A DNA stretch of 64,000 nucleotides, from positions 62,001-126,000 of the forward strand of contig JALHRJ010000002.1 of the NCBI GenBank assembly GCA_022841475.1. Direction: 5' to 3'. This DNA comes from Cyclobacteriaceae bacterium (GTDB lineage: Bacteria; Bacteroidota; Bacteroidia; Cytophagales; Cyclobacteriaceae). Positions 1-62,038 of the stretch are shown one piece after another (positions within the stretch are counted from its first letter, which is position 1; every line of letters starts with the position of its first letter). The notes beneath the pieces are model-generated. The model ran no database searches, had not been told where the DNA came from, and saw only the letters and a program-made list of their open reading frames with translations. Both the position numbers and the translations under genes were made by a program.

Positions 1-371
1 CGAGCTTCGAAAAAAGTCCATCCTTTTGAAACGGTGAAATTCAGACCTAGCGCCAATGTTGCGAAATCGTTGTCGTCTGTGTCAGTTGTTAACCGAACAA
101 CGCCGGGTGTCTGAGCATTGATTGCTGCGGTTGCACCAGTTGATAAGTTTGTCTGCCAAGTAGCATTGACTGTATCGCCTAGAAAGTCGTCAAACCATGC
201 TAAGTATTCCGGGTTGTTCAACATCAAGCTCCAACGCAAACCTTCCCAATTGTGAATTGACGGGCGTCCTGCCTTTGCGCCAATTACAATTGCGCTGCGA
301 TCAACATCGCTACTCCCGGCTTGCGGGAATGAAATGTTGGTGTTAGCTTGTTCGTAATCTCTTATAGCCAT
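1..371 (-). CDS. Partial virion-type protein (N-terminal 123 residues)
   Basis: Open from an ATG at 371 to the window edge, so the C-terminus is missing. The protein begins MAIRDYEQANTNISFPQAGS and continues with a Gly/Thr/Asn-rich, probably beta-structured sequence containing TPGVVRLTTDTDDNDFATL. That style is common in phage head-decoration and tail proteins. It lies downstream of the capsid gene in the same direction, which supports a structural role. No family is recognised. Confidence 0.7.
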   Translation of the reverse strand, partial: MAIRDYEQANTNISFPQAGSSDVDRSAIVIGAKAGRPSIHNWEGLRWSLMLNNPEYLAWFDDFLGDTVNATWQTNLSTGATAAINAQTPGVVRLTTDTDDNDFATLALGLNFTVSKGWTFFEA

Positions 372-13983: not shown

Positions 13984-16872
<2,889 letters not shown>

Positions 16873-29044: not shown

Positions 29045-32663
<3,619 letters not shown>

Positions 32664-33203: not shown

Positions 33204-33227
33204 GTTTGACTCCTTTTTAAACAGAAT

Positions 33228-33300
33228 CGCCCTCAGAGGGACTCGAACCCCCGCCCCAGAGTTTAGAAAACTCTTGCTCTATCCACTGAGCTATGAGAGC
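33228..33300 (-). tRNA. tRNA-Arg(UCU)
   Basis: Complete cloverleaf: acceptor GCTCTCA/TGAGGGC, anticodon loop TTTCTAA. Transcribed after tRNA-Ala from the promoter at 33388. Confidence 0.95.
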
Positions 33301-40100: not shown

Positions 40101-41519
40101 TTAGAATTTAAAGCGCGGTTCTGCCATACGGACGATATATGGAGTAAACGCGCCAACAACTGAAACTGCATCCGATTGATATTTCATAACATCAGAAATT
40201 CGCTTGTAAGCACGAGGGTCTTCGTCTTTGTCCCCACCAATTAAACTTACCCCGTATTCTTTGGCAACATATTCTTTTGTTTCACCCTTCAATTGTTTCA
40301 GGGCTGTCCCTCTCGACATGACTCGTCCTGCACCATGAGAAGCACTAAACAAAGTTTGCTCGTTTCCCTTCCCAACAACAATTTGTGACTGATCGCCCAT
40401 TGTAGCCGGAATGATTCCCCACTCATTGTAATTGGCTGGGGTTGCGCCTTTACGATGAATATAAACTCCATCAAGTTCTGGATAATCAGTGCTGTTAAAC
40501 ATCCAGCAAAAATTATGGCGCGAATAAACACTACGCAAAACATCGGTATCAAAATCAACACGATTAGCAATTTCAGTCATCAAAACATAGTGCAAGTGTT
40601 CATGCGAATTTTGAGCAAACTTACCAGCCCAATTCATCAAAACAAAATAATCATTTGCCCAACCATCGGCATTAAAGAACAGTGGCGCATTATCGTTATA
40701 GCCTTTTGGCATTGGATACAGTTCATTAGCTTTATCTAAAAAGAAATCAGCTATCTTAGCGCCAATCCCGCGAGAACCAAAATGACTCATAATTGCAAAA
40801 TTAGTTTCATTTCCAATTTGTGCAATTCCCAAATCAACAAAGTGATTCCCATCGCCAGATGTACCGAAGTGATTACGTGCTGTTGCCTTAAGAGTAGTAA
40901 GTAGTTTTTTACTGATTGGGTTAACCAATTGTTCATCGAGTTGGCGATAAACTTCATCACTACAAACCTCGTTGTACAAATCATATTCCCAAACCGGGTT
41001 AGGGTTCATCTCCAACCCGAAGTAAGAATATTTCTGTAAAACAAATGAAAGCGCAGGAAGATTATTAGTAATCCAATCGCTATCAACCGGATTGTTTGTG
41101 ATTGTTAACCGAACGCTACAGGCGATGTCACTCCCGACAACGCCCGGAAGGATACAATCCCTAGTGGCAACAACTCCACCAACTGGAACATGCCCATCTT
41201 TAACACGATGTCCGTCGGGCATAATTCCGGCCCAAACAACATAAGGCAAACGACAAATTGCATTGATGTCGTCAATTGCATTTGAATCAATAATCGACTC
41301 GCCAATAACAACAGGGTGGATAGGGTTATCCAGTAATTGGATTGAGCGACTTTCAGTTTCATTCTGCTCATAATAAAGCCGCAAAATCATACTTTCAATT
41401 TCAACAACATTTGAACCAATGTCAATGGCATAAAAAACGCGCCCTTTGTTGGCGTTATTTAATTCCATTTCATTCATGCGCAAAGCTATTTCTTTGCGAT
41501 TGATGCGATTGTAATTCAC
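40101..41519 (-). CDS. rtcB: RtcB-type RNA ligase
   Basis: 472 residues. Metal-site motif GVVGSDIACSVRL (D131, C134), GDGNHFVDLG, GSRGIGAKIADFF, and the guanylylated His in FSASHGAGRVMSRG are all present. RtcB joins 2',3'-cyclic phosphate or 3'-phosphate RNA ends to 5'-OH ends, using GTP and Mn2+. Overlaps the upstream gene by 4 nt. With the Rnl-type ligase at 55563 and the tRNA genes, it fits repair of tRNA cut by host anticodon nucleases. Confidence 0.95.
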   Translation of the reverse strand: MNYNRINRKEIALRMNEMELNNANKGRVFYAIDIGSNVVEIESMILRLYYEQNETESRSIQLLDNPIHPVVIGESIIDSNAIDDINAICRLPYVVWAGIMPDGHRVKDGHVPVGGVVATRDCILPGVVGSDIACSVRLTITNNPVDSDWITNNLPALSFVLQKYSYFGLEMNPNPVWEYDLYNEVCSDEVYRQLDEQLVNPISKKLLTTLKATARNHFGTSGDGNHFVDLGIAQIGNETNFAIMSHFGSRGIGAKIADFFLDKANELYPMPKGYNDNAPLFFNADGWANDYFVLMNWAGKFAQNSHEHLHYVLMTEIANRVDFDTDVLRSVYSRHNFCWMFNSTDYPELDGVYIHRKGATPANYNEWGIIPATMGDQSQIVVGKGNEQTLFSASHGAGRVMSRGTALKQLKGETKEYVAKEYGVSLIGGDKDEDPRAYKRISDVMKYQSDAVSVVGAFTPYIVRMAEPRFKF

Positions 41520-49852: not shown

Positions 49853-50081
49853 CGTAATAAGAACGCTCTATAATAAAATCGAGTTCATTGCTGTTGAACG
49901 GAAAATCAATAACAGTGCAACCAAGTTTATCGTACATAAAACAAACGCCATTCTCAGTTAGTTCAAATGTGATTCCATAGGTCGCAAAGTAAACCAAAAG
50001 ATTTAATTCGTCAAATTCATCATCCGGGCCTAATTCGATTTTGTAGTATCTACAAATATCTTGAATGTTATTAATCTGCAT
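49845..50081 (-). CDS. Unknown small acidic protein
   Basis: 78 residues, acidic (RYYKIELGPDDEFDELNLLV). Coupled to the methyltransferase by overlap. Function not recognised. Confidence 0.5.
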   Translation of the reverse strand: MQINNIQDICRYYKIELGPDDEFDELNLLVYFATYGITFELTENGVCFMYDKLGCTVIDFPFNSNELDFIIERSYYDE

Positions 50082-50415
50082 TTGATGTTAGTCCTGCTCG
50101 TTCTAAAATCATATTCATGACCTTGTTTAGAATATGTTCTTCATCAACCATTTTGCTAAGAAATGCTAGATTGTTTCCGCACAATGTATTGTTAAGAAAA
50201 TATCCGCTATAAAAAATATGTTCAACATATGGCAAAGTATGATCTGACTCAAATTTAGTTAAGATATATTCGATTTTAATATTAACATTTGCACGAGTTA
50301 ATTTTAGACTCGTTTTATATACAATAGCCTTATGTCCATTAAAAGTTTCAATTATATTTTCTTCTAATATCACAGTTACTTTTAACCTTTGTCTACAATT
50401 GAATTGTTGAACCAC
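50071..50415 (-). CDS. Unknown protein
   Basis: 114 residues, beta-rich then helical. Overlaps both neighbours. Function not recognised. Confidence 0.5.
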   Translation of the reverse strand: MVQQFNCRQRLKVTVILEENIIETFNGHKAIVYKTSLKLTRANVNIKIEYILTKFESDHTLPYVEHIFYSGYFLNNTLCGNNLAFLSKMVDEEHILNKVMNMILERAGLTSNAD

Positions 50416-50990
50416 AATTGAACTTCACGAAAATCGACACTGCTGTCATAACACAAGAAACGAACACGCGGGCATGGCAATCCTTTATCTTTACCATGTT
50501 CATCAAGAAATGCAATAACATTATAATTATTTTCATCCAGAAAAACCGAGAAGTCAAATCGCTCCATCGAATTGTTTTTATTTTTGTTCATCCCAATGAA
50601 TGCCTCATCGAGATTTGACGGAGTATTGTTTAACACTTCGCGACAATAATGAAACATGGAATGTGATTGCGTAATGTTATTATCGTTATCAATTTGTGTA
50701 ATAGCGTAATCTTTTTCGTGTTGACTACCAATCTCGCGTTTGTGAAAAACGAAATAAAAAACACTATCAAGTTGATTGAATTCTGGAATAGTTGTCGGCT
50801 CAGGCGGGATGTATTGCGGAATAACATGTGGCATAAACTGTTGTTCAACTGGAACAGGCGACAAATTTTCAAAACCCGGTGGAATCAGGTTAAAAGAATT
50901 TTCGATTGGCGCAGTAGACATTTTCTTTTTTGAAGCTGTATAAGCTGTGCCGCCAAACATATCGAGAATATCACCAATATTCTTAACCAT
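50382..50990 (-). CDS. Unknown protein with Pro-rich segment
   Basis: 202 residues. Residues ~30-70 are Pro/Gln-rich (PVPVEQQFMPHVIPQYIPPE); the rest is alpha/beta with acidic runs. Function not recognised. Confidence 0.55.
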   Translation of the reverse strand: MVKNIGDILDMFGGTAYTASKKKMSTAPIENSFNLIPPGFENLSPVPVEQQFMPHVIPQYIPPEPTTIPEFNQLDSVFYFVFHKREIGSQHEKDYAITQIDNDNNITQSHSMFHYCREVLNNTPSNLDEAFIGMNKNKNNSMERFDFSVFLDENNYNVIAFLDEHGKDKGLPCPRVRFLCYDSSVDFREVQLWFNNSIVDKG

Positions 50991-51018
50991 GAATTTATTC
51001 CTTAATTAAAAACTTTAG

Positions 51019-51089
51019 CTGCGGCGACTGGATTTGCACCAATATTCGCGGGTTCAAAGCCCGATGTCCTGCTATTGAACGACACCGCA
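51019..51089 (-). tRNA. tRNA-Gln(UUG)
   Basis: Acceptor TGCGGTG/CGCCGCA with the U1-A72 pair typical of tRNA-Gln, anticodon loop CTTTGAA, discriminator G. Confidence 0.93.
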
Positions 51090-51093
51090 TCAA

Positions 51094-51167
51094 TCGGGGT
51101 GAGAAGATTCGAACTTCCAACAAACAGTTTCTAAGACTGCTTCCTCTGCCAGTTGGGATACACCCCG
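51094..51167 (-). tRNA. tRNA-Leu(UAG) with short variable loop
   Basis: Acceptor CGGGGTG/CACCCCG, anticodon loop CTTAGAA, T-arm GGAAG-TTCGAAT-CTTCT, discriminator A. The variable loop is only five bases, unlike the long arm of normal bacterial tRNA-Leu. Confidence 0.88.
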
Positions 51168-51197
51168 TATCGTGAATTGCTATTTCAGATTCAATTC

Positions 51198-51434
51198 CTA
51201 AACTTTTTCAAAACACTGTCTATCGAAATTGAATCTGAAATGTTCCTGCCAGTTTCCATCGTAAAAACCAGTTGCATCACTTGAATATTCCCATTCCCAT
51301 AAACTTAACGGCTTGTTTTCCTTTTTACTTCTGCTTTCGAAGAACGAACCATTATCCATTTTGTACAGATATGTTCTATATATGAATCCATTACGAAACG
51401 CTTCTTTTTTCCAGTATTCAACTGCGCGATGCAT
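51198..51434 (-). CDS. Unknown small protein
   Basis: 78 residues from the ATG at 51434 (AGGAG eight bases upstream); an upstream in-frame start at 51476 lacks a site. Trp/Tyr-rich (MHRAVEYWKKEAFRNGFIYR). Function not recognised. Confidence 0.6.
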   Translation of the reverse strand: MHRAVEYWKKEAFRNGFIYRTYLYKMDNGSFFESRSKKENKPLSLWEWEYSSDATGFYDGNWQEHFRFNFDRQCFEKV

Positions 51435-51614
51435 ATTATTACTCCTGTTAAAACATTCGATTTCAAACGAAATCAATACACCGGAAAGAAACCAACATCT
51501 GTTAAAAGGTCGTATAATTCATTAAACAAATCTAACACAGCAAACCGCCCATCACTGTGATTTCTGTTATAAACAAAACGATATGTTAACCTCACTTTTT
51601 GTTATGGTCATTGC

Positions 51615-51642
51615 ATTATAACGCAAAACAGCACTTTGTCAA
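51615..51642 (-). promoter_or_regulatory. Promoter TTGACA-N16-TATAAT
   Basis: Perfect consensus, in the gap before 51434. The 180-bp leader holds nothing else I can identify. Serves the small gene and the Leu/Gln tRNAs. Confidence 0.85.
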
Positions 51643-51884
51643 GCCAATCTATGTTTAATTATTTCAACGACTTGACCACAAGTTAATGAAAAAATCTCAA
51701 CACCATTTTCATCGTAACAACCCCAAGCAAATTGCTCCGATGGAAGTTCGGCGCACATTGGCTTAATGGACATAATATAAGTAGCGAGACTGTACAGCAC
51801 ATCATACGGGTCAAAATTAACAACCTTGTCGGTTACAATCTTGTATTCCTGTGTGATTCTATTTTTCTTGATTTCCATGTTCAC
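51639..51884 (-). CDS. Unknown small protein
   Basis: 81 residues, alpha/beta (EYKIVTDKVVNFDPYDVLYS). Overlaps the upstream gene by 26 nt. Function not recognised. Confidence 0.5.
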   Translation of the reverse strand: MNMEIKKNRITQEYKIVTDKVVNFDPYDVLYSLATYIMSIKPMCAELPSEQFAWGCYDENGVEIFSLTCGQVVEIIKHRLA

Positions 51885-52158
51885 AAACTTTCACTAATTC
51901 ACTATATTCAACGGCAGTGCGACACTTATGTCCGTTGTTATCAGTATAATCAACGCAAACAAAATAAGGACACCAACCACGTTTATCGCGAGGTGCATAA
52001 ACTTTCGGCACTTTAATAGCGCCAACCATTCCAACTACATCACTGGTTAATGGTGTGAAAACCGGATTCATTCCATAACCAGAATAGTATGCCTGTTTTA
52101 TTATATCGGCTTTGACAGTAACTTTGTCACCAATGTTAAACTTATCGTACTTAGACAT
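51859..52158 (-). CDS. Small SH3-like barrel protein
   Basis: 99 residues from the ATG at 52158. KFNIGDKVTVKADIIKQAYY and later Val/Gly strands suggest an SH3-like or KOW-like barrel. Function unknown. Confidence 0.55.
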   Translation of the reverse strand: MSKYDKFNIGDKVTVKADIIKQAYYSGYGMNPVFTPLTSDVVGMVGAIKVPKVYAPRDKRGWCPYFVCVDYTDNNGHKCRTAVEYSELVKVCEHGNQEK

Positions 52159-52507
52159 TAACATCAATCTCCGTGACAGCATCATTATAATATTTTAACA
52201 AACGATAATCATTTGTTATTGCAATATATATTAAATTGTTTCTTTTGTTTGTAATCCAAATAACATGGTCGTGCGGTGCTGGCGGTTGTATTGTAGCCGG
52301 TTCAAAAACAACCGGAATATTAATTATCTTTGTTGGTATATATTTCTTGTTTTTATCAAAATTATCAATTACAATTTCACTTAACAAAGATATAATATTT
52401 TCAGGTACATGCCAGAACAATTTTTCATTGACACCAAAATATTCAGAAGCAACTGAATGTGCTTTGAAAATTAATTTTAATATTCTAGCTTCGTTTTTAT
52501 TTGGCAT
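52151..52507 (-). CDS. Unknown protein
   Basis: 118 residues from the ATG at 52507 (upstream TTG at 52528 is possible). Helical start MPNKNEARILKLIFKAHSVA, beta end. Overlaps the next gene by 8 nt. Confidence 0.5.
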   Translation of the reverse strand: MPNKNEARILKLIFKAHSVASEYFGVNEKLFWHVPENIISLLSEIVIDNFDKNKKYIPTKIINIPVVFEPATIQPPAPHDHVIWITNKRNNLIYIAITNDYRLLKYYNDAVTEIDVNV

Positions 52508-52509
52508 TC

Positions 52510-53082
52510 CTATAACTTCCCACCCCAATTGTGCATCATATCTTTAATCACAACTGCAATCTCATCGTTTGTTGTAGCTTTTTTGTAACCAATTTGATCG
52601 ATAAGCGCCAATGCCTTGTCGGTTAAACTATATTGACGTTCTTCATCGTCTTCTTTCCAGTCGATACCTTCAGAAGAAACCATATAGCCCATAAGAACTA
52701 ATGCCTCGGCATGAGCTACAAACATCCACTTGTGTTTGTAATTTACAACGGCCTTTTTGTCTAATAAGACATTAATGTTACTTACGTCATTAAAATCAAA
52801 CAAATCACATTCACACTCAAGGCTTTCTTGAAGATTATCCTTTTGGTGAGGACAGTTATCGAGTTTTAACTTGGCATAGAAAAGCAAAGTAGTTAGGTGA
52901 CTAATCCGAAACAAAGCATTCTGGATAGCTTTTTCCATCATGTCATCTAATAGTTTGGCATAACTATCCCAGAATTCGTGATAGGTTATGCCCGTTATAA
53001 AATCCGGCTCATATCCAAAATCGGCCACTTCTTGCATAACGATGTCTATATCAACAGGTAAATCAAAGTAATTTTGTCTCAT
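52510..53082 (-). CDS. Unknown helical protein
   Basis: 190 residues, helical, Asp/Leu-rich (NYFDLPVDIDIVMQEVADFG). Function not recognised. Confidence 0.6.
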   Translation of the reverse strand: MRQNYFDLPVDIDIVMQEVADFGYEPDFITGITYHEFWDSYAKLLDDMMEKAIQNALFRISHLTTLLFYAKLKLDNCPHQKDNLQESLECECDLFDFNDVSNINVLLDKKAVVNYKHKWMFVAHAEALVLMGYMVSSEGIDWKEDDEERQYSLTDKALALIDQIGYKKATTNDEIAVVIKDMMHNWGGKL

Positions 53083-53088
53083 TGTTAT

Positions 53089-53328
53089 TTAATCCAAATC
53101 GTCGTGAATTTTGTAACCCATTTCTTCGAGTCGCTTCATGATAGCAACCCGGATTTCAATCTCGGAAGTACCACGCCAATTACGCAGCACATCTTTTTTG
53201 ATGCGAGTTTTGTCCTCGTTGCGATATTCATTCGCGCTATCAATCGCAAAAGAACGACGCATGTTCTTTTTGTTTCTCGGTTTGCGCTGTTGATTTTTGT
53301 GCTTACCTGTTTTTTGTGGCTTTGCCAT
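53089..53328 (-). CDS. Small basic protein
   Basis: 79 residues. The first 30 are extremely basic (KPQKTGKHKNQQRKPRNKKN), then a helical C-terminus. Nucleic-acid binding is likely from charge alone. Confidence 0.6.
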   Translation of the reverse strand: MAKPQKTGKHKNQQRKPRNKKNMRRSFAIDSANEYRNEDKTRIKKDVLRNWRGTSEIEIRVAIMKRLEEMGYKIHDDLD

Positions 53329-53332
53329 AAAA

Positions 53333-53569
53333 TTATTCTCCGAACATCATAATGAACGTCTTGTTACCCAATGTATTTCTCAAATCAGGTTTTTGACAAC
53401 CTACTTCATAATAACCCGCCTTGACATTCATGGCAATGTTATCGTGGATATTCTGGTGAATATCTTCTGGCGCATAATACTGGGTCGTATAAACTGCTCG
53501 ATATAGTTTGCCATCCTTGTAACCAACATGAACGTCAATGCCATTTACCTTCACGAGTTTCGCCTTCAT
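53333..53569 (-). CDS. Unknown small protein
   Basis: 78 residues, beta-rich (KLVKVNGIDVHVGYKDGKLY). Follows tRNA-Thr. Function not recognised. Confidence 0.55.
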   Translation of the reverse strand: MKAKLVKVNGIDVHVGYKDGKLYRAVYTTQYYAPEDIHQNIHDNIAMNVKAGYYEVGCQKPDLRNTLGNKTFIMMFGE

Positions 53570-53602
53570 TTTTTTTGTTTTCCTAAAACAAAATAACTAA
53601 AA

Positions 53603-53675
53603 AGCCCAAAGTGAGACTTGAACTCACGACCTCTCGCTTACAAGGCGAATGCTCTACCAACTGAGCTATTTGGGC
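53603..53675 (-). tRNA. tRNA-Thr(UGU)
   Basis: Acceptor GCCCAAA/TTTGGGC, anticodon loop CTTGTAA, T-arm GTGAG-TTCAAGT-CTCAC, discriminator U. Confidence 0.96.
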
Positions 53676-53683
53676 ATAACAAC

Positions 53684-54082
53684 CTATGCGATTTCGTTCA
53701 ATGCTTCTTCTGCTTCATCCCACCATTCTTGTTCTTCACGCATACGAACGCGACTGCCTTTGTTTTGAACGTCAGGACGCGACCATCCATCGCGGGCAAC
53801 GAAGCATTCCTGTTGACCATTTCCCCTGCGGAAAGTTGACGCATTCTTGTACGGGCTGTAACGAAACAACCGAACACCACCGTCTTTACGAGGAAAAACA
53901 ATAGCGCCAGACTCATTGATTTCAAAACGGTTGTGAATAAAGAAATTGCGTCCGCGCCGAAAATCGCGACGTTTTTTATCGCGAGGATTATGACGAGATT
54001 CTTGGCGCTCAATGAATTCACGAAAAGCCTCGACATCGATTTCGGTATCAATATCGATAGTGGGTTCAATGTTTGCGCTCAT
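53684..54082 (-). CDS. Arg-rich protein
   Basis: 132 residues: acidic first 25, very Arg-rich middle (HNPRDKKRRDFRRGRNFF), mixed end. Own promoter at 54118, followed by tRNA-Thr. Probably binds nucleic acid. Confidence 0.6.
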   Translation of the reverse strand: MSANIEPTIDIDTEIDVEAFREFIERQESRHNPRDKKRRDFRRGRNFFIHNRFEINESGAIVFPRKDGGVRLFRYSPYKNASTFRRGNGQQECFVARDGWSRPDVQNKGSRVRMREEQEWWDEAEEALNEIA

Positions 54083-54117
54083 GATTTTTCCCTTTTGTAT
54101 TCCAACTTATAAAAACA

Positions 54118-54145
54118 ATTATAGCGCTAAAATCTTAAAAGTCAA
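54118..54145 (-). promoter_or_regulatory. Promoter TTGACT-N16-TATAAT
   Basis: Drives the Arg-rich gene and tRNA-Thr. Confidence 0.85.
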
Positions 54146-54150
54146 CTGTT

Positions 54151-54441
54151 TTAATTCAGAAACACTCGAATTAAATTTCTTATATATGCTTTTAACACTT
54201 GAAGGTTCATAAGGCTTTCGCGTTTGTGGTAAGCAACATCAAAATCAAAATGATTGACTCGCATGTAGTTTTCTACATCAAGTTCGAGTTTTGGGTCGTC
54301 GTTTAAAACATAAAAACTAACTTGTTCTTGGTTGTTATCAACAAACCGATAAGAAAAAATAGGTTTAGTTTGAGAAAAATAAAACAAAACTTTATCGAGG
54401 ACATCAATCGTGGTATAAAAAACAGGTTTTCGGTCAATCAC
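54151..54441 (-). CDS. Unknown small protein
   Basis: 96 residues, alpha/beta (IDVLDKVLFYFSQTKPIFSY). Follows tRNA-Met. Function not recognised. Confidence 0.55.
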   Translation of the reverse strand: MIDRKPVFYTTIDVLDKVLFYFSQTKPIFSYRFVDNNQEQVSFYVLNDDPKLELDVENYMRVNHFDFDVAYHKRESLMNLQVLKAYIRNLIRVFLN

Positions 54442-54475
54442 AATTTTACCTAATAGTTTTTGAAAACATAGATTG

Positions 54476-54547
54476 TGGACACACTTGGATTCGAACCAAG
54501 AACCGACCCGTTATGAGCAGGCTGCTCTGCCGTTGAGCTATGCGTCC
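54476..54547 (-). tRNA. tRNA-Met or -Ile2 (CAU), copy 1
   Basis: Acceptor GGACGCA/TGTGTCC, anticodon loop CTCATAA, discriminator A. Position 1 is paired, so it is not an initiator. Confidence 0.93.
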
Positions 54548-54554
54548 TTGCTTA

Positions 54555-54588
54555 TAAAACAAAAGTGTCGTCTGTTGTCAGGCGACAC
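54555..54588 (-). terminator. Terminator of the large structured RNA
   Basis: Minus strand GTGTCGCC-TGACAACA-GACGACAC followed by TTTTGTTTT. Confidence 0.85.
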
Positions 54589-54845
54589 TCCTATTAAAAA
54601 ATTTAGACAAATAATTAAATATCGGGGCCTTTTAATTATTGATAAATTATGGTAGATAACCGATATTTGTCAGTCTAAATTATCTCGCTTTGCAATGCTG
54701 CTGTGCATGGTGCGAGACAAACCCTTAACACTTTTGATTTGCGATAGTGCATTGCAACTGACGGGCTTTCGCCAACATTATCAACCTACGCGAGTCATAA
54801 ACCCATAAAAATAAAACTAAGTATCAAAAACAATATTTGCTAAAA

Positions 54846-54917
54846 CCAGAACAAGTTGCGAACCTGTGACTTGGAGAAATATTTTTGAAACGTTAACCCA
54901 AGTCGAATCAGTTCTGG
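54846..54917 (-). other. tRNA-like fold inside the large RNA
   Basis: CCAGAA/TTCTGG closes a unit with a 7-bp hairpin GACTTGG/CCAAGTC and a T-arm-like hairpin ACAGG-TTCGCAA-CTTGT. No proper D-arm or anticodon arm. Could be a decayed tRNA or a tRNA mimic. Confidence 0.4.
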
Positions 54918-54943
54918 ATGTATCTATTTTTAAGTTACAAATA

Positions 54944-54972
54944 AGTGTACCAAAAAATAAAAATTTTGTCAA
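54944..54972 (-). promoter_or_regulatory. Internal promoter TTGACA-N17-TACACT
   Basis: Lies in an A/T-rich stretch between two structured halves of the large RNA. Confidence 0.6.
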
Positions 54973-55315
54973 GTACCTATTTTTAATTTCGGCTAGGTTG
55001 ATACTGCGTTCTCGACCTAGCCTATACTCAGCATCGTCTTTAATCTGAGTTTTGGCGCTTTTAGCTATAACAAGGTAGCAGGGGCGATATTACTGCGCCT
55101 TACTATTCTCGTGCTTCCCTAGACGTTTTCACTAAGTTTCGGCGTCTTGTTAGAGCCGTTCTCTTAGCTAGTGCTCTTTGCGAAGCTACCTTGTGCCGTT
55201 TGTTTCCCCAGTTCCGCATCTTACCGTCCGGCTGACGTAGCGGGGTTATTCAGTGAAACTTGTGCAGCAAGCAACACTGAAAGGGTTACTGTTTCCTTAT
55301 GTGACTTACACACTC

Positions 55316-55343
55316 ATTATATAGTGTGTTTCTGATTTGTCAA
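55316..55343 (-). promoter_or_regulatory. Promoter TTGACA-N16-TATAAT for the large RNA
   Basis: Perfect hexamers just downstream of tRNA-Met copy 2; no coding gene follows for 800 bp. Confidence 0.88.
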
Positions 55344-55349
55344 GCATTT

Positions 55350-55422
55350 TGATCGCACTTGGATTCGAACCAAGAACCGACCCGTTATGAGCAGGCTGCT
55401 CTGCCAATTGAGCTACGCGATC
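55350..55422 (-). tRNA. tRNA-Met or -Ile2 (CAU), copy 2
   Basis: Acceptor GATCGCG/TGCGATC, same anticodon and T arms as copy 1 but different acceptor and D-loop. One of the two may be the lysidine-modified Ile tRNA. Confidence 0.93.
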
Positions 55423-55573
55423 AGTGATTTGCAAAAAACCAATAGAGACTATAACCAGCCATAAACAAAGCTACCGTTATATAAACAATCAACGTCGCCA
55501 TCGCAAAAAACGTTGTTGCTTTTTCGAAGCAATCGAGCTTTGTTATCTTATCGAAATAGTCTTTAAGTTTCAT
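55421..55573 (-). CDS. 50-residue membrane protein
   Basis: From the ATG at 55573 with GGAG upstream. One membrane segment, FFAMATLIVYITVALFMAGY, near the C-terminus and a charged N-terminus. Overlaps the RNA-ligase stop by 11 nt. Function unknown. Confidence 0.6.
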   Translation of the reverse strand: MKLKDYFDKITKLDCFEKATTFFAMATLIVYITVALFMAGYSLYWFFANH

Positions 55574-56216
55574 CAATGACTCCGTTTGGTTTTTCGTTGT
55601 ATATCTTTGACCAGTGTTTATCGGTCTGAACATGATTGGCGCGTACAAATTTGGCTACACAGACAGAAAAATCATCACAAGCAAAAGAGTCGGTAATCCG
55701 AACAACATAACCTTCTTGTTCGCCTTGTAAATAGCTTTTACCTGTGTAACATGCCTTAATTACATCTTCTTTGTAAGCACCACGATACAAAGTTGGAACA
55801 GTTTGTATGTCAAGCAATTTTGCGTAGATAACTGTATCATCCCAAGACAAACACTTATCATCTTCCCAAATGCTAAACAAACGAAACCAATCACCGACAA
55901 GTTCTTTAGCATTATAACGAATGCTGTGTTTAGCATAAAGATATTCGCCACACAAACGAATGTTGTTTGGAATGAGTCCTTGAACTCGTCTGGCCCACCA
56001 AGCCTTTAACCAATCGCGTGATACATGATAACGGTTGTTCATGCTACGCGCATGAAGTGTATCATTATACAGTGTGAAGTTTTCGCCATCCAGCTTTTCT
56101 GTGACGACCACTTCGCCAGCATATAACTTGTCCATTGTTTCAATCACCCGGTCATCAGCAGAAATGCCTTCAGAAAAAGGCAGGTGTGATGTTCGGGGAT
56201 ATTTCATTGTTTCCAT
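55563..56216 (-). CDS. Rnl-type RNA ligase
   Basis: 217 residues from the ATG at 56216 (AAGG eight bases upstream). Nucleotidyltransferase motif I EKLDGEN (Lys41), motif III-like CGEYLYAKHSI, motif IV EGYVVR, motif V VAKFVR. Seals 3'-OH/5'-phosphate RNA ends with ATP. Short, without the extra C-terminal domain of T4 Rnl2. Complements RtcB. Own promoter at 56251. Confidence 0.88.
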   Translation of the reverse strand: METMKYPRTSHLPFSEGISADDRVIETMDKLYAGEVVVTEKLDGENFTLYNDTLHARSMNNRYHVSRDWLKAWWARRVQGLIPNNIRLCGEYLYAKHSIRYNAKELVGDWFRLFSIWEDDKCLSWDDTVIYAKLLDIQTVPTLYRGAYKEDVIKACYTGKSYLQGEQEGYVVRITDSFACDDFSVCVAKFVRANHVQTDKHWSKIYNEKPNGVIDET

Positions 56217-56250
56217 CACGCCCACCTTTTCTTTCAGAGGATATAGTTGT

Positions 56251-56278
56251 ATTATACAGCTTGATGTGTATTTGTCAA
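56251..56278 (-). promoter_or_regulatory. Promoter TTGACA-N16-TATAAT
   Basis: Drives RNA ligase, the small membrane protein and tRNA-Met copy 2. Confidence 0.87.
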
Positions 56279-57006
56279 GGGATTTGTTTCAATCTCGTTT
56301 CTGCCATTTCGCAATAAAACTTAGACTTGTCGATGCCGATATAATTACGTCCTGACTTTTTTGTTACAACAGCCGTTGTGCCGCTTCCAACAAACGGGTC
56401 TAATATAACCTTAGCATCAGTTGATGAAATTATTCTATCTACCAATTCACTTGGGAATGGTGCAGGGTGAGAATTATTTTTTTCTTGATTAATGCGCCAA
56501 ACATCACCATGTCTATTTGCAGTAGGCTTCAATTTGAATTTTGATTTAGCAATCAGATAGATAACTTCATATGTTGGCAAAAAATAGCTATCGTTAAAAT
56601 TAATTCCGCCGCTACGCTGCCAAATAATAATTTGTCTCACGGGAAAACCCGAAACAATATCTTGTCGGTCTTGCAACAAACCTTTTTGAACACGCCATTT
56701 GTGGTTATAGAAAATAGCCCCATTATCAGGAATCAACCGCATCATTTCCGTTAAACATGAACGCTGCCATTTTACATATTCATCGTGCGGCATATTATCG
56801 TCGTGTTCATCGTACCCATCAATCAACTGTGCGTTTTTCCAGCGGCCCTTGGCGTGACTTTTCATCCCATTACCGGATGAATTTTTTAAGTTATATGGTG
56901 GCGATGTAACAATCAAATCAACCGATTCACTTGTCATTTGTCTCATAACATCAATACAATCGCCACATACAATTTGATTAAGAAACATATGTGGATAATA
57001 AGCCAT
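56275..57006 (-). CDS. Beta-class DNA methyltransferase
   Basis: 243 residues. VTSPPYNLKNSSGNG near residue 34 and DPFVGSGTTAVV near 203, plus DVWRINQEKNNSHPAPFP, the usual pattern of phage adenine/cytosine amino-methyltransferases. Overlaps the upstream gene. Confidence 0.9.
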   Translation of the reverse strand: MAYYPHMFLNQIVCGDCIDVMRQMTSESVDLIVTSPPYNLKNSSGNGMKSHAKGRWKNAQLIDGYDEHDDNMPHDEYVKWQRSCLTEMMRLIPDNGAIFYNHKWRVQKGLLQDRQDIVSGFPVRQIIIWQRSGGINFNDSYFLPTYEVIYLIAKSKFKLKPTANRHGDVWRINQEKNNSHPAPFPSELVDRIISSTDAKVILDPFVGSGTTAVVTKKSGRNYIGIDKSKFYCEMAETRLKQIP

Positions 57007-57601
57007 CGAAATCTACTCCTTTTAGTTTTGCAACATGTTTTAAGTAACGAATAATGCCTTCTTGGTAATAATGAAATCTTGTATTCAATTCCATTAGTTG
57101 TTTCAAGGTTTTTAACTGTGCATCGGTTGGCGGGTTATCGTATGGTACAACGCCATGCATCAATAGTATCCAACCCGCTTTAATTAATCCCTCTTGGTCA
57201 TGGTTGACCTTTGCTGTCAAATCGGGTTCAATTTTAAATTGATAAATTAAATCTTTCGCCAGTCTTGTATGTCCTAACCATTCGCAGCGATATATATCAC
57301 CATTTGGAGCAAGGTATCCATCAACATCATGCACTAAAGCGCGGCTTAAATCGAATGGCAACAATGGACATATCATTCGATAATCATTATTAATTTGTTC
57401 TATGCGTTCCTCGTCCATATCATGAACGATGCCATAGTCTTTTATGATGATAAGACCCTTTGGTGGATAAGAGAAGTGTGAATAACCACCGAACCAGTGA
57501 AACTCGTCAGCTTCTTCTAAAGTCCCTAACGCCCAATGCGGCGTATCATCACCATAAATCCCTTGTTGGTTATACTGAATCGCCAACCAGTGCTTCAACA
57601 T
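56978..57601 (-). CDS. Unknown protein
   Basis: 207 residues from the ATG at 57601. His/Trp-rich (PHWALGTLEEADEFHWFGGY), alpha/beta, several Asp-Pro turns. Overlaps both neighbours by about 30 nt. Function not recognised. Confidence 0.55.
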   Translation of the reverse strand: MLKHWLAIQYNQQGIYGDDTPHWALGTLEEADEFHWFGGYSHFSYPPKGLIIIKDYGIVHDMDEERIEQINNDYRMICPLLPFDLSRALVHDVDGYLAPNGDIYRCEWLGHTRLAKDLIYQFKIEPDLTAKVNHDQEGLIKAGWILLMHGVVPYDNPPTDAQLKTLKQLMELNTRFHYYQEGIIRYLKHVAKLKGVDFDGLLSTYVS

Positions 57602-58052
57602 GATTTTGCTCCAAAACAATATTATCGGGCAATTGATTAAGAAGAATATTCCACATTTTCACAAAATCTTCTGCAACAATCGTTTCAATATCAATTGTGA
57701 TGTCGTTGACAACAGTTTCTCCTGATTGAAATGTCATGGGTGAAGTATAGGTTTTGCCATCGTATTCAAAGACAAATTTACACAAAAAATACCATTCAAC
57801 GCTATCACCTTCTGACATTTCGCTTTTGTAATTAAATGTCTGTGGCTTAATTAGTAAATTAATATTTTCTTGAATAGGAATGATTGCTAAATGTTTATCA
57901 ACATCAATAGTAGCTTTTTCCATAAGATGTTGCAAACCAATCATCTTGAGAAAAAATGATGCACGATAAGAGATACTGTTTTTAATCTTCGTGTTGCTTC
58001 GTTCAATCACTCGAAAAACAGGCTTCATAAAATCAGGATTACGATTAAGCAT
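57570..58052 (-). CDS. Unknown protein, full-length paralogue of the adjacent remnant
   Basis: 160 residues from the ATG at 58052, spaced nine bases from GAGG. The C-terminal half, EWYFLCKFVFEYDGKTYTSP ... VAEDFVKMWNILLNQLPDNI, matches the truncated copy upstream. Function unknown. Confidence 0.6.
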   Translation of the reverse strand: MLNRNPDFMKPVFRVIERSNTKIKNSISYRASFFLKMIGLQHLMEKATIDVDKHLAIIPIQENINLLIKPQTFNYKSEMSEGDSVEWYFLCKFVFEYDGKTYTSPMTFQSGETVVNDITIDIETIVAEDFVKMWNILLNQLPDNIVLEQNHVEALVGDSV

Positions 58053-58269
58053 TTTTGACATCCTCGTCCGGTATTGTATTAGCAACAATTAAATCATTAA
58101 GGTCAAGCCACATTTGAACAAATTTCTCTGCGATATAAATGCCATCGGGCAAAATCCGATGATCTCTCACAATTGACACACCAGAAGAAAAAGAATCTTT
58201 AACCTCTACATTTACCACGTCTTTAGTATAAAATAATTCGGTGTGGTATTCCCAATTTGACTCCTGGCA
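58045..58269 (-). pseudogene. Truncated paralogue lacking its 5' half
   Basis: Open frame with no usable start: ESNWEYHTELFYTKDVVNVE ... GIYIAEKFVQMWLDLNDLIV, ending at TAA 58045. It aligns along its length with the C-terminal half of the next gene (W...F, SG..V..D..I, IAE-FV-MW--L). Upstream of codon 1 the sequence changes to the structured RNA at 58270. Looks like a gene whose front was replaced. Confidence 0.7.
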
Positions 58270-58407
58270 TCAGCGCGGGATATATCGCTGATCAACTGGT
58301 TAGCAAAATTTCCGATTCACTCAACGATTTCAGCGTATTCTGCTATCCCTAACAGATCGTTTTAGCTACATCGAGCGAACCACTAATATCTCCAAAAGTG
58401 ACCCACG
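58270..58407 (-). ncRNA. Structured RNA transcribed toward the truncated paralogue
   Basis: Strong promoter at 58414 starts a ~140-nt ORF-free leader with stems such as CTGTTAGGGATAGCAG, AACGAT..ATCGTT and ATCAGCG..CGCTGAT. The family is not recognised. It could be a ncRNA or a long leader. Confidence 0.5.
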
Positions 58408-58413
58408 ATTGTC

Positions 58414-58442
58414 ATTATAGAGTAACAAGGCTTAAATGTCAA
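58414..58442 (-). promoter_or_regulatory. Promoter TTGACA-N17-TATAAT
   Basis: Perfect hexamers; faces the structured RNA and lies back-to-back with the promoter of the plus-strand gene. Confidence 0.85.
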
Positions 58443-58469
58443 GCGTTTAGCTACATCATTTTTTTGAGT

Positions 58470-58475
58470 TATAAT
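58470..58475 (+). promoter_or_regulatory. -10 element TATAAT of the plus-strand gene
   Basis: TGAGTTATAAT, 42 bp before the ATG, with only a weak -35 (TTAGCT, 17-base spacer). The word TTTAGCTACATC at 58446 recurs at 58361. Confidence 0.6.
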
Positions 58476-58516
58476 TATTTCAATGAACGTATTTTAAACA
58501 GCAAACGAGGAAAACA

Positions 58517-58867
58517 ATGTTAACCAGAAAAACTTTGCAATACATGGGAAAAACCCGCCGCGCCAAAGGCCAATCAGTCAGCGAAAATGTTTTTGAAGCA
58601 CTGAATGAATTTGGTTCTGTCATAATAAAAGACCAAGCGCGTTTTGAAAAAGCTGTCAATGGAGTGATTGATCAGTTAGAGTTTCCAACTGACAAAGACA
58701 CAAAAGATTTTCTTGACAATATAATTAGGGCATCGAAAGCATTCTCGAATGGAATCGATGCAGGTAACTTTATTCTTGAAGACTATGGCGCAAAACCAAT
58801 TGATGTAAGAGAAGAAATTTATGGCGCATTAAGTGGCGTTATATACAATTACTTTTACGGACGCTAG
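58517..58867 (+). CDS. Lone plus-strand small basic-N-terminus protein
   Basis: 116 residues, the only convincing plus-strand coding gene. ACGAGG precedes the ATG. N-terminus MLTRKTLQYMGKTRRAKGQS is basic and shares RKTL-YMGK with the C-terminal tail of the 19423 product; the rest is acidic and helical. It has the same build as the nine small proteins at 16.9-22 kb but its own promoter and opposite direction. Function unknown. Confidence 0.75.
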   Translation: MLTRKTLQYMGKTRRAKGQSVSENVFEALNEFGSVIIKDQARFEKAVNGVIDQLEFPTDKDTKDFLDNIIRASKAFSNGIDAGNFILEDYGAKPIDVREEIYGALSGVIYNYFYGR

Positions 58868-58874
58868 TCATTCA

Positions 58875-59666
58875 CTATAAAGTGAATGCGAATACTGCCG
58901 AAGGTGAATCGGAGTGATTAATCTTAATTCGTTTCACCTCAAACTCATAAAGAGTATGATGTTGTGACATTTCTTTTTTAGTTAGCTGAATATTTCTAGG
59001 AATACTTATATTATAAACAGGAATAGGTGCTAAAAATATAATTGAATTTGTATCATCTAAGACAGTTAACCCACTTGTAGTATCCTGTTTAAATTCAAAA
59101 ATGTCTGCATTCCAGTAAAAAATATCTCGATTAAACAATTGGTTATATTGAATTGAGTTCGTATCCACAACATATTTACCACTAGCGTCTTTCAATCGGC
59201 AAATATCAGTGTAGCAACTTTTACTCACATGCCAAACGTAATCACGCCCAACTTTATAGTAAATATTATCAATATACTGACGGTTATTAACAACATTTTT
59301 GAACGACGTGTCATCGAACAATAATGTCTTGCTTTCCATTCTTGTTGATGAAGCTGCCTCAAATAGTTTCTTCTGAATTGTATAAAGAATTAATTTTTTG
59401 ATTTCATACGATATGTTTTTGATAATAACATCGATGTCAAATTCATTTATCGAAAGAAGCATTCTAACATAAAATGAATCCATCTGGCGGTCAAATGAGT
59501 TCGGAGAATAAGTGTTTAATGTAGAAAGTTCAAAATAAGATTCATTTTTCAATTCAGCAACAATAGCATCAGAAAAAACTTCATCAATATTTATTTCTGA
59601 TGCTACAGGTGACTTATAAATATCGCGAACCAAGATAACATCGCGTTCAACCAATGAAAAATCCAC
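58875..59666 (-). CDS. Unknown protein
   Basis: 263 residues, alpha/beta, Asp/Ile-rich (NEFDIDVIIKNISYEIKKLI), no enzyme motif seen. Converges with the plus-strand gene. Function not recognised. Confidence 0.6.
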   Translation of the reverse strand: MDFSLVERDVILVRDIYKSPVASEINIDEVFSDAIVAELKNESYFELSTLNTYSPNSFDRQMDSFYVRMLLSINEFDIDVIIKNISYEIKKLILYTIQKKLFEAASSTRMESKTLLFDDTSFKNVVNNRQYIDNIYYKVGRDYVWHVSKSCYTDICRLKDASGKYVVDTNSIQYNQLFNRDIFYWNADIFEFKQDTTSGLTVLDDTNSIIFLAPIPVYNISIPRNIQLTKKEMSQHHTLYEFEVKRIKINHSDSPSAVFAFTL

Positions 59667-59682
59667 GATTTATTTTCCTTAA

Positions 59683-59985
59683 CTAATCTTCTATGGGGAT
59701 GAGTTGCATGGGAGTATCCCATTTGATATAACGCTGCACAGCCTGTATGCTATTTCCCTTAACTCGCACTGATGCCATGCGAACCGTTTGATGTGTATTA
59801 CTAGCATGTGCTTCTTGATAAATGGCGTTTCCTTTGACAATCTTCGCGTGGTATTTACCAACCCACCACCAATCACCACACAATTGCCAAGCCGTATAAG
59901 TTTTTGAAGCATCGTACTCTTGCATCACTTTGATAGTTCCTGTTTGGGCTAAATCTAATTTTTGTTTAGCAAAAGCCGGAGACAT
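59683..59985 (-). CDS. Unknown protein with hairpin-controlled start
   Basis: 100 residues from the ATG at 59985. Trp-rich (YTAWQLCGDWWWVGKYHAKI). The ribosome site and start lie in a hairpin (59975-59998). Function not recognised. Confidence 0.65.
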   Translation of the reverse strand: MSPAFAKQKLDLAQTGTIKVMQEYDASKTYTAWQLCGDWWWVGKYHAKIVKGNAIYQEAHASNTHQTVRMASVRVKGNSIQAVQRYIKWDTPMQLIPIED

Positions 59986-59998
59986 AATAAACTCCGGC
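59975..59998 (-). promoter_or_regulatory. Hairpin sequestering ribosome-binding site
   Basis: GCCGGAG pairs perfectly with CTCCGGC seven bp apart by a ten-base loop that contains the ATG. GGAG is the ribosome site, six bases from the start, so the closed hairpin should block translation. Confidence 0.7.
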
Positions 59999-60036
59999 CC
60001 TTGACTAAACATGTGGTCTTTATCGCAGATACCACA

Positions 60037-60260
60037 GATTAATAGCTAAAACAAGATTACCAGTATTCGCAATACTGCTTATATTCACTATCAACCACGC
60101 TGATAGCCCCATCCACGCTATCAGTCTGCATCAGCAACCCCGATGCAGCCCGCCTGAGTCGCCCACCTCGTTGCTCAGGCTTTACCAATCCACAGTTCAG
60201 CTTTGCGAAATTGCTAACTGTACTCTCGCCGCCAACAATCTGTTGCAAACAGATTATCTA
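60037..60260 (-). ncRNA. Array of six consecutive hairpins downstream of two tRNAs
   Basis: Perfect or near-perfect stems follow one another: AATCTGTT/AACAGATT (60237-60255), CAGTT-AGC (60193-60220), GCCTGAG/CTCAGGC (60152-60180), CTGCATC/GATGCAG (60126-60148), CTGATAGC/GCTATCAG (60100-60124), CAGTATT/AATACTG (60061-60077). A 63-codon frame across it has no family or ribosome site and is probably chance. Transcribed from the tRNA promoter at 60451. Unknown RNA. Confidence 0.65.
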
Positions 60261-60274
60261 AGAGCGCCCAGTAG

Positions 60275-60347
60275 TGGCCCCTGCTGGATTTGAACCAGCA
60301 CTGTGCTGATTTTGAGTCAGCTTCCTCTGCCGTTGGGATAAGAGGCC
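60275..60347 (-). tRNA. tRNA-Leu(CAA) with short variable loop
   Basis: Acceptor GGCCTCT/AGGGGCC, anticodon loop CTCAAAA, T-arm GCTGG-TTCAAAT-CCAGC, discriminator A, five-base variable loop. Confidence 0.88.
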
Positions 60348-60351
60348 GAAG

Positions 60352-60425
60352 TAGCGATGGTGGGAGTCGAACCCACACTACACTGATTTTAAGTCAGTTT
60401 CCTCTGCCAGTTGGGATACATCGCC
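60352..60425 (-). tRNA. tRNA-Leu(UAA) with short variable loop
   Basis: Acceptor GGCGATG/CATCGCT, anticodon loop CTTAAAA, T-arm GTGGG-TTCGACT-CCCAC, discriminator A, five-base variable loop. Confidence 0.88.
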
Positions 60426-60434
60426 GTGTTAATT

Positions 60435-60674
60435 TCAACTTACAGCTTTGATTATAGTCAACCCATCGTTCAAGTCAAGAGTGAAAATATTGTGCGACAC
60501 TTTTTTGCATACATAGTGCATCATAAGTTGTTTAATCATTTCGTTTTTGCCAAACACAACACGACAAAATTTTTCACTTGAACCCACCGCAGTAAAAGTA
60601 ACTCGGTTGTCGCTGATGTGGACAAACAAACTATGCGACACGATTTTAATTCCTTGTTGCAAATTGTATAACAT
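60435..60674 (-). CDS. Unknown small protein
   Basis: 79 residues, beta-rich (GIKIVSHSLFVHISDNRVTF). Lies between tRNA groups; the promoter for the Leu tRNAs overlaps its 3' end. Function not recognised. Confidence 0.55.
   Translation of the reverse strand: MLYNLQQGIKIVSHSLFVHISDNRVTFTAVGSSEKFCRVVFGKNEMIKQLMMHYVCKKVSHNIFTLDLNDGLTIIKAVS
60451..60478 (-). promoter_or_regulatory. Promoter TTGACT-N16-TATAAT
   Basis: Drives the two Leu tRNAs and the hairpin array. Confidence 0.85.
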
Positions 60675-60676
60675 TA

Positions 60677-60749
60677 CTGTCTCGGAGGGACTTGCACCCC
60701 CGACTTTCCGCTTCGTAGGCGGACGTTCTATCTTCTGAACTACGAGACA
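60677..60749 (-). tRNA. tRNA-Arg(ACG)
   Basis: Acceptor TGTCTCG/CGAGACA, anticodon loop CTACGAA, discriminator G; T-loop is TGCAAGT instead of TTCAAGT. Confidence 0.92.
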
Positions 60750-60753
60750 AAAG

Positions 60754-60826
60754 CTGCCTTATCTGGGTTCGAACCAGAAACATACAAGTTAACAGCTTGT
60801 CGCTCTGCCAATTGAGCTATAAGGCA
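60754..60826 (-). tRNA. tRNA-Asn(GUU)
   Basis: Acceptor TGCCTTA/TAAGGCA, anticodon loop CTGTTAA, discriminator G. Confidence 0.95.
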
Positions 60827-60830
60827 ATAT

Positions 60831-60909
60831 TGGGCGCGGTTGGATTCGAACCAACAATGCCGAAGCACCCGGTTTACAGCCGGGGGAGCAGCCGTTGCTC
60901 AACACGCCC
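60831..60909 (-). tRNA. tRNA-Tyr(GUA)
   Basis: Acceptor GGGCGTG/CGCGCCC, anticodon loop CTGTAAA, variable arm TGC-TTCG-GCA as in bacterial tRNA-Tyr, discriminator A. Confidence 0.95.
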
Positions 60910-60915
60910 TTCTAT

Positions 60916-61116
60916 CTATTTCCAATCCAGTGATTCTCGCGCTGCTTTGGGTTCTTTTCCCCAAGTGCGGCTATCGTAGTGACCAAGAAGACCTGCAACG
61001 AACCATTGGTTTTTCATCTGAAAATTGATTGCAGCATAAGTCTTGGCTGCCCGACGCTTACGCATCGCACGTTTAGCACCGCGACGATGCTCACCCTTGT
61101 AAATCTCTCGACGCAT
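60916..61116 (-). CDS. Small very basic protein
   Basis: 66 residues, Arg/Lys-rich first half (MRREIYKGEHRRGAKRAMRK), Trp-containing end. Precedes the Tyr/Asn/Arg tRNA cluster on the same transcript. Nucleic-acid binding is likely. Confidence 0.55.
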   Translation of the reverse strand: MRREIYKGEHRRGAKRAMRKRRAAKTYAAINFQMKNQWFVAGLLGHYDSRTWGKEPKAARESLDWK

Positions 61117-61127
61117 AATGACCTACT

Positions 61128-61322
61128 TTACAAACCAGCAATGGTACAATACATCGCCATTGCAATGTCGAAGTTGTGGATGTGATACTCGGTATCCGAA
61201 ATCTTCACGCTGTTCCTGTCGTTCAACAGCGACAAAACCTTGTGCGCTGCATTTGGAATTGTATCACACATCTCGCTGCTCGAAAATGTTACCGAGTTGT
61301 TCTTGTTGATTTGCACGTTCAT
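61128..61322 (-). CDS. Unknown small protein
   Basis: 64 residues from the ATG at 61322 (AAGGA upstream); the earlier ATG at 61361 lies within the promoter's start region and has no site. Function not recognised. Confidence 0.55.
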   Translation of the reverse strand: MNVQINKNNSVTFSSSEMCDTIPNAAHKVLSLLNDRNSVKISDTEYHIHNFDIAMAMYCTIAGL

Positions 61323-61365
61323 TGTTAGTTCCTTAGCACCTTTATTGTATTTACTCGACATTTTT

Positions 61366-61393
61366 ATTATAGCGTATTCCGCTATTTTGTCAA
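61366..61393 (-). promoter_or_regulatory. Promoter TTGACA-N16-TATAAT
   Basis: Starts the unit 61128, 60916 and the Tyr/Asn/Arg tRNAs. Confidence 0.87.
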
Positions 61394-61430
61394 GTGATTT
61401 GCATTTTTTGCTTCAAACGAAAAGAAGCTA

Positions 61431-61502
61431 TGCCCCCGGCAGAAGTTGAATCTGCAACCATCCGGTTAAAAGCCGGTTGCTCTACCGTTGAGCTACGAAG
61501 GC
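61431..61502 (-). tRNA. tRNA-Lys(UUU)
   Basis: Acceptor GCCTTCG/CGGGGGC, anticodon loop CTTTTAA, T-arm GCAGA-TTCAACT-TCTGC, discriminator A. Confidence 0.94.
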
Positions 61503-61512
61503 GTTTTTATTA

Positions 61513-61731
61513 TTACTCAGTTACAACTGTATATGCAACAGTTGTCACACCGTACTTGTCGCGAATGACAGCAATGGTCTTGTCCAATTCTTCGATAGCG
61601 GTTTCCATCGCGTCGGCCTTGCCATTTGACCAATCATTGTCCAGATATTTGTTGGCATAGTTATCGAACAAATACGCATAAGTTGCGCGTAAATTCATCA
61701 ACTCGCCCAACACACCATTCTCGTCCATCAT
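61513..61731 (-). CDS. Unknown small helical protein
   Basis: 72 residues, helical, acidic (LGELMNLRATYAYLFDNYAN). Own promoter at 61765, cotranscribed with tRNA-Lys. Confidence 0.6.
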   Translation of the reverse strand: MMDENGVLGELMNLRATYAYLFDNYANKYLDNDWSNGKADAMETAIEELDKTIAVIRDKYGVTTVAYTVVTE

Positions 61732-61764
61732 AACCCCGCTTGTTTTCTATTCAACTATAGTGAC

Positions 61765-61792
61765 ATTATAGCTTGATTTGTCTGATAGTCAA
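61765..61792 (-). promoter_or_regulatory. Promoter TTGACT-N16-TATAAT
   Basis: Drives 61513 and tRNA-Lys. Confidence 0.85.
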
Positions 61793-61801
61793 GTGTTTTA
61801 G

Positions 61802-62038
61802 TTAACCCTGATTTTCTTGAAGCATCTGAACATAAATAGCTTTACCAGTTTGGGTGAGCGCGACGTATTCACCAATATACAACATCCCTTTTCTAAAAAG
61901 AGTTCGCTGTATGTTATAGGTGTTATTGCGATTGGTTAAATACCAATCCACATGTCCAATGTCACCAATCATGCGGATAGCTTCTTTTTCTTCGTCTGTT
62001 AGCGTTATGGTTACTTGATAGTTATTAAACATGGTCAA
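61802..62038 (-). CDS. Small winged-helix-like protein
   Basis: 78 residues. YQVTITLTDEEKEAIRMIGD start, helix-turn-strand end (YIGEYVALTQTGKAIYVQML) resembles a small winged helix. Overlaps the upstream gene by 14 nt. Possible regulator; weak. Confidence 0.5.
   Translation of the reverse strand: MTMFNNYQVTITLTDEEKEAIRMIGDIGHVDWYLTNRNNTYNIQRTLFRKGMLYIGEYVALTQTGKAIYVQMLQENQG

Follow-up and report, generated by a model that had tools for sequence, protein, structure and literature searches.

A large non-coding RNA gene that runs from promoter to terminator is well supported by the sequence of a phage tRNA island on the minus strand of the window, i.e., of the whole 64-kb stretch of DNA analysed (bases 62001-126000 of a 196,280-bp contig). 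The RNA is probably real, and it appears as an orphan among large phage RNAs, being neither a demonstrated GOLLD or ROOL RNA nor yet a demonstrated class of its own. The explanation that we favour, with a probability of roughly 0.45, is that one structured phage RNA of ~750 nt has its dedicated gene here, and that this RNA would work like GOLLD or ROOL without being related to them. At the sequence level it is supported by a host-type promoter, a terminator, the lack of an ORF of more than 60 amino acids, an excess of long stems and the location in a phage tRNA island.

The locus and its phage genome

The initial annotation placed the RNA between two tRNA genes. Both are tRNA-Met(CAT) genes and both are encoded, like the RNA itself, on the minus strand. 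The following features delimit the locus.

54558-55309, minus: predicted non-coding RNA of ~750 nt, based on promoter and terminator, ORF absence and stems
55349-55423, minus: tRNA-Met(CAT), upstream neighbour of the RNA
54475-54547, minus: tRNA-Met(CAT), downstream neighbour of the RNA
55316-55343, minus: sigma70-type promoter TTGACA-16-TATAAT, 12/12 match, predicted start near 55309
54557-54593, minus: intrinsic terminator, a stem-loop followed by TTTTGTTTT, based on fold energies
54944-54972, minus: internal promoter-like site TTGACA-17-TACACT, 10/12 match

The stretch between the tRNA genes comprises 801 nt; the promoter begins 5 nt past the upstream tRNA-Met and the terminator stops 9 nt short of the downstream one. 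The flanking genes are 88% identical, with the main differences in acceptor stem and D-loop, and no other two of the 15 tRNAs that ARAGORN identified on the contig are as similar. One of them may be a duplicate that arose on arrival of the RNA gene.

The consensus promoter, the terminator and the lack of an ORF, all claimed initially, are confirmed. Promoter-class sites (TTGAC[ACT]-15..18-TATAAT) occur 24 times on the 196-kb contig, 20 on the minus and 4 on the plus strand (two of the 24 are one site, counted in both overlapping contig ends), versus a mean of 0.6 and a maximum of 3 in 20 dinucleotide shuffles of the contig, so that the promoter of the RNA belongs to a statistically supported set. 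The terminator stem-loop (54593-54561) folds alone at -14.7 kcal/mol and ends at ~54557; with flanks (54596-54556) the value is -18.3 kcal/mol, the T-run then being partly paired. This terminator is absent from the list of the terminator scan, whose loop-length limit it probably exceeds. The internal promoter-like site might divide the ~750-nt unit and counts against reading it as a single RNA. It is weak evidence, however, because sites of 10/12 grade are common on both strands: eight occur in 50000-62000, five of them on the plus strand, against the genes.

No ORF of more than 60 amino acids is found between the tRNAs on either strand (ATG, GTG or TTG starts), and two short minus-strand ORFs, of 42 (overlapping a tRNA) and 51 amino acids, score low by codon use (6.5 and 6.1; limit 8). 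A rough gene call yields 258 genes and a coding fraction of 90.3% for the contig. Among its gaps, the one that holds the RNA is, tRNAs included, the longest with 1,121 nt, followed by gaps of 903, 805, 798 and 724 nt. Its length is not unique, since other gaps measure 805 and 798 nt as compared with its 801 nt without the tRNAs, and the existence of other ORF-free gaps of similar length on the same contig counts against a dedicated RNA.

The phage genome seems to be near closed at ~196.1 kb, because the contig ends (C2:1-195 and 196086-196280) repeat 195 bp with two mismatches. Pfam domains on the contig include portal, capsid, RtcB, RNA ligase, NAD-dependent DNA ligase and IMPDH, and in the gene call the RNA_ligase gene is the next one upstream of the RNA locus. 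The terminase was recognised via matches to annotated phage terminases. Its best match has ~40% identity among phages and in IMG/VR alike, 62 genomes of the genus and 390 of the order contain no further match, and on this terminase comparison no close relative of the phage was found. Elsewhere in the window, a portal protein of 1,335 amino acids (6584-10591, minus) carries a LigT/2'-5' RNA ligase-like domain in its C-terminal part, and a terminase-like protein (13984-16872, minus) has a long aspartate run and a LAGLIDADG/Hom_end insert that is probably an intein. An RRXRR-domain protein (Pfam PF14239; 363 amino acids; 31632-32723, minus) we take to be perhaps IsrB/IscB-like. A called gene for 114 amino acids (32859-33203) upstream of it leaves little non-coding DNA, and no HEARO match is listed in 32500-33260 (E<=1).

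Predicted fold and comparison with chance

With nucleotide p of the RNA corresponding to position 55316-p of the window, the predicted anatomy consists of the following elements.

55054-55298 (nt 18-262), minus: GC-richer 5' domain with hairpins at nt 36-66 and 71-110 and a branched domain
54813-55053 (nt 263-503), minus: AU-rich middle domain, from the predicted fold
54779-55003 (nt 313-322 with 528-537), minus: alternative 10-bp long-range helix TATCAACCTA/TAGGTTGATA
54683-54757, minus: candidate H-type pseudoknot, TTGCAATGC/GCATTGCAA plus TCTCGC/GCGAGA
54600-54681 (nt 635-643/708-716 and 648-656/691-699), minus: predicted long 3' hairpin

The branched part of the 5' domain is closed by the stem ACAAGGTAGC/GCTACCTTGT (nt 122-131/237-246; 55194-55185 with 55079-55070), and forcing these 10 bp costs 0.8 kcal/mol. 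Folded alone, the 5' domain reaches -68.3 kcal/mol; its mean helix probabilities are 0.57-0.99. The middle domain is predicted to comprise a long helix (263-288/473-503), a hairpin (294-304/315-325) and a three-way junction (399-470), and an AU-rich composition break (GC 0.32) covers nt 301-420. The helix TATCAACCTA/TAGGTTGATA excludes the hairpin 294-325 and, when forced, lies 4.3 kcal/mol above the minimum. It might act as a switch or as a contact between molecules, or be due to chance. The two candidate pseudoknot helices (nt 559-567/618-626 and nt 599-604/628-633), each forced alone, cost 0.9 and 0.3 kcal/mol, respectively, and we infer that both would form jointly. In the modelled fold, a 6-bp helix (29-34/591-596) may close the molecule. 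Two other candidates were dropped: a tRNA-like nature of the three-way junction at nt 399-470, where the tRNA models listed no match, and an antiterminator pairing of nt 580-588 with 748-756, which is 6.3 kcal/mol worse.

The several perfect long-range stems noted initially, ACAAGGTAGC/GCTACCTTGT among them, are present and in excess, as the RNA contains seven perfect Watson-Crick stems of at least 9 bp, versus a mean of 1.28 and a maximum of 4 in 60 shuffles. The genome background is 1.82 such stems per 761-nt segment, and ~1.3% of 1,030 segments, some of which overlap the RNA itself, reach seven. Less distinctive is the presence of at least two stems of at least 10 bp with at least three GC, which is true of the RNA and also of 5.9% of the genome segments.

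The fold-energy z of the RNA is -4.15 with 20 shuffles and -3.50 with 100, but 4 of 36 random contig segments score lower, and a composition regression over the 1,030 segments gives the RNA a z of -1.80. None of the 25 most stable segments listed covers the RNA. Its fold energy does not stand out within this genome and was dropped as proof of a structured RNA. The opposite (plus) strand folds equally well (z -4.66), and the strand is therefore assigned via promoter and terminator instead of folding. By the same measure, the ROOL RNA of L. salivarius plasmid pMP118 scores only -1.8 (60 shuffles), so that a modest z is no argument against an ornate RNA and fold energy neither proves nor disproves one.

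Known RNA families and the search for relatives

GOLLD forms a 14-mer cage with kissing loops and has a conserved 3' domain in its model, and ROOL forms a homo-octamer cage. The present RNA resembles GOLLD as a large phage or prophage RNA of similar length, often located by tRNA genes, with a multi-domain fold that is predicted in our case. ROOL is likewise large, phage-linked, non-coding and often near tRNA islands. Found in a phage genome and near tRNA genes, it shares the setting of both families, for which tRNA islands are reported in PMC12286853; there, GOLLD env-38 (833 nt) lies downstream of a Met-tRNA and GOLLD linkers at times contain tRNAs.

The suggestion that the RNA is a divergent GOLLD or ROOL member, for which an Rfam/Infernal search with both models had been proposed, did not hold up. 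A cmscan of 54400-55450 (1,051 bases, E<=10) lists neither GOLLD (RF02032) nor ROOL (RF03087). At gathering level, only the two flanking tRNAs and no other Rfam family are matched in this region, and the rest of the contig has no Rfam match at that level. Six further matches (E<=10) are far below; sub-threshold matches over the 3' end of the RNA are to STnc340 (26.3 bits; gathering 80) and GibS (22 bits; 115). The ROOL model has no match in the own genome, and the ROOL search works, because it finds the pMP118 ROOL at 130.4 bits. The GOLLD model reaches at best 13.9 bits in the own genome, on another contig (cut-off 150); five of 14 control genomes were also matched below the cut-off, and with no match proper among 36 records and 14 control genomes, the GOLLD negative stands without a positive control. 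A very remote GOLLD kinship is thus unlikely, which falls short of exclusion. A further difference from GOLLD is that no tRNA model match is listed within the RNA, whereas GOLLD linkers sometimes hold tRNAs. Although size, tRNA neighbours, phage origin and the position of env-38 downstream of a Met-tRNA would suit a very divergent member of either family, the outcome of these searches makes such membership highly improbable.

PMC7567579 describes an orf-less RNA of ~800 nt as the most abundant transcript of phage ICP1, so that strong phage expression of such an RNA is feasible. This transcript is similar in being a large non-coding phage transcript of GOLLD/ROOL-like size, but ICP1 has no tRNAs and no ICP1 match occurs among the best 30 of 41 phage records. 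In the accessible parts of the literature on large phage RNAs (including PMC12286853, PMC7567579, PMC6582537 and PMC5643018), no description of the present RNA was found.

Blastn searches with the RNA gave no phage record (E<=10) covering more than 6% of the query among the 30 listed of 41, and no plasmid record covering more than 7% among the 10 listed of 23. With the tRNAs included, 104 records were matched, and among the 40 listed, the rows with named features are tRNA matches. Although 52 of 58 relative genomes were matched at E<=1, the non-self matches listed are shorter than 100 nt, with a best E of 0.002. IMG/VR was scanned by exact motifs or via coding neighbours. Neither a gapped stem pattern nor a tRNA-Met 42-mer had a match, and three 16-mers occurred in 15, 14 and 10 contigs; all 39 of these matches fall within stop-free frames (231-2,136 nt, one strand) and show no wider similarity to the RNA. 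The RNA ligase led to 36 loci (best 49% identity) and the terminase to relatives in three of six cases, and RtcB to none among six stretches. Fourteen RNA-ligase loci from genome contigs contained no noteworthy RNA match.

Two covariance models, R1 and R2, were built from this single sequence. R1 detected only itself in 395 class genomes and on the window plus seven of eight other contig stretches, and itself plus two 26-nt pieces at 15.3 bits in 45 records; R2 detected only itself and its own antisense in 50 sources. Using the RNA, nhmmer recovered 10 of 10 test copies at 60% identity with 4% indels, and 4 of 10 at 50%. Phage and plasmid collections, IMG/VR scans and model searches brought up no convincing homologue and hence no covariation, which counts against the favoured explanation; a new class, which needs relatives with covariation, is unproven.

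Possible functions and competing explanations

Should the locus be dedicated to a single structured RNA, host RNA polymerase would transcribe the ~750-nt RNA strongly, and the transcript would adopt a fold with a compact 5' domain, followed by the AU-rich middle and a 3' domain that contains the pseudoknot. It would function at the RNA level, most likely in a stable structural or scaffolding role, in a GOLLD/ROOL-like manner and possibly by self-assembly, which is the least supported step. That it is the founding member of a new giant phage RNA class, i.e., an RNA-only multimer unrelated to GOLLD and ROOL in sequence and fold, is conceivable but doubtful; if true, RNA assemblies would have evolved in phages on at least three separate occasions. 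How frequently large natural RNAs form nanocages is left open by the 2025 cryo-EM study (PMC12286853), and the present RNA, which is similar to GOLLD and ROOL in size and setting but showed no sequence link to them in our searches, offers a direct test of this question. It also suggests that family-based searches may miss orphan giant RNAs.

The locus might instead produce two RNAs, a long one starting at 55309 and one of ~380 nt starting near 54938, which would share the terminator at 54557, or else a long precursor might be cleaved. In either case, the outcome would not be one ornate RNA of 750 nt. Such an arrangement would agree with the internal site at 54972-54944, with the composition break in the middle domain and with the gap C2:129814-130611, which by eye also has two promoter-like sites in tandem. 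However, 10/12 sites are equally frequent on the gene-poor strand, the predicted helices 263-288/473-503 and 29-34/591-596 span the internal site, and the terminator scan lists no terminator-like site between, so we regard two RNAs as unlikely. Distinctly unlikely is a mere spacer or decayed remnant of a tRNA duplication, in which promoter and stems would be coincidental: the near-identical flanking tRNAs, the ordinary fold energy, the lack of detected conservation and further ORF-free gaps of 500-900 nt on the contig are in line with it, but the stem excess argues against it, as does a perfect promoter that faces the same way as a terminator ~750 nt away, and some of the other gaps themselves resemble RNA loci.

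The neighbourhood of 15 tRNAs on the contig, RtcB and an RNA_ligase gene next upstream would also suit an RNA that serves the tRNA and RNA-repair module as a decoy or regulator, being made in bulk and having no defined three-dimensional assembly; it could, for instance, be an antisense RNA, or a sponge that binds a host nuclease or a defence RNA-binding protein. A sponge, however, has no need of elaborate long-range stems. Exact 14-nt matches of the RNA to the rest of the contig (either orientation) number 6, versus a mean of 3.0 and a maximum of 10 in 20 shuffles, so that nothing points to a dedicated antisense target within the phage; the host was covered by a whole-RNA search only. On balance, such a role is improbable.

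Some other ORF-free gaps of the contig lie outside the window. In C2:164630-165434 (L070:18630-19434), several tRNA-like 5' and 3' halves are present, and the inserts between them have common motifs by eye. When introns are allowed, ARAGORN identifies one tRNA-Ile(GAT), at C2:164740-164887, that carries a 56-nt insert. As the phage also encodes RtcB (40101-41519 of the window), splicing of phage tRNAs is conceivable. The ORF-free gaps C2:129814-130611 (798 nt) and 131122-131734 (613 nt), which correspond to L069:3814-4611 and 5122-5734, carry TTGACA/TATACT promoter-like sites by eye and have one sub-threshold Rfam match at E<=3. In fold stability, the minus-strand segments C2:129961-130720 and 130341-131100 take the first and third places among the 1,030, and the two gaps are possibly further non-coding RNAs.
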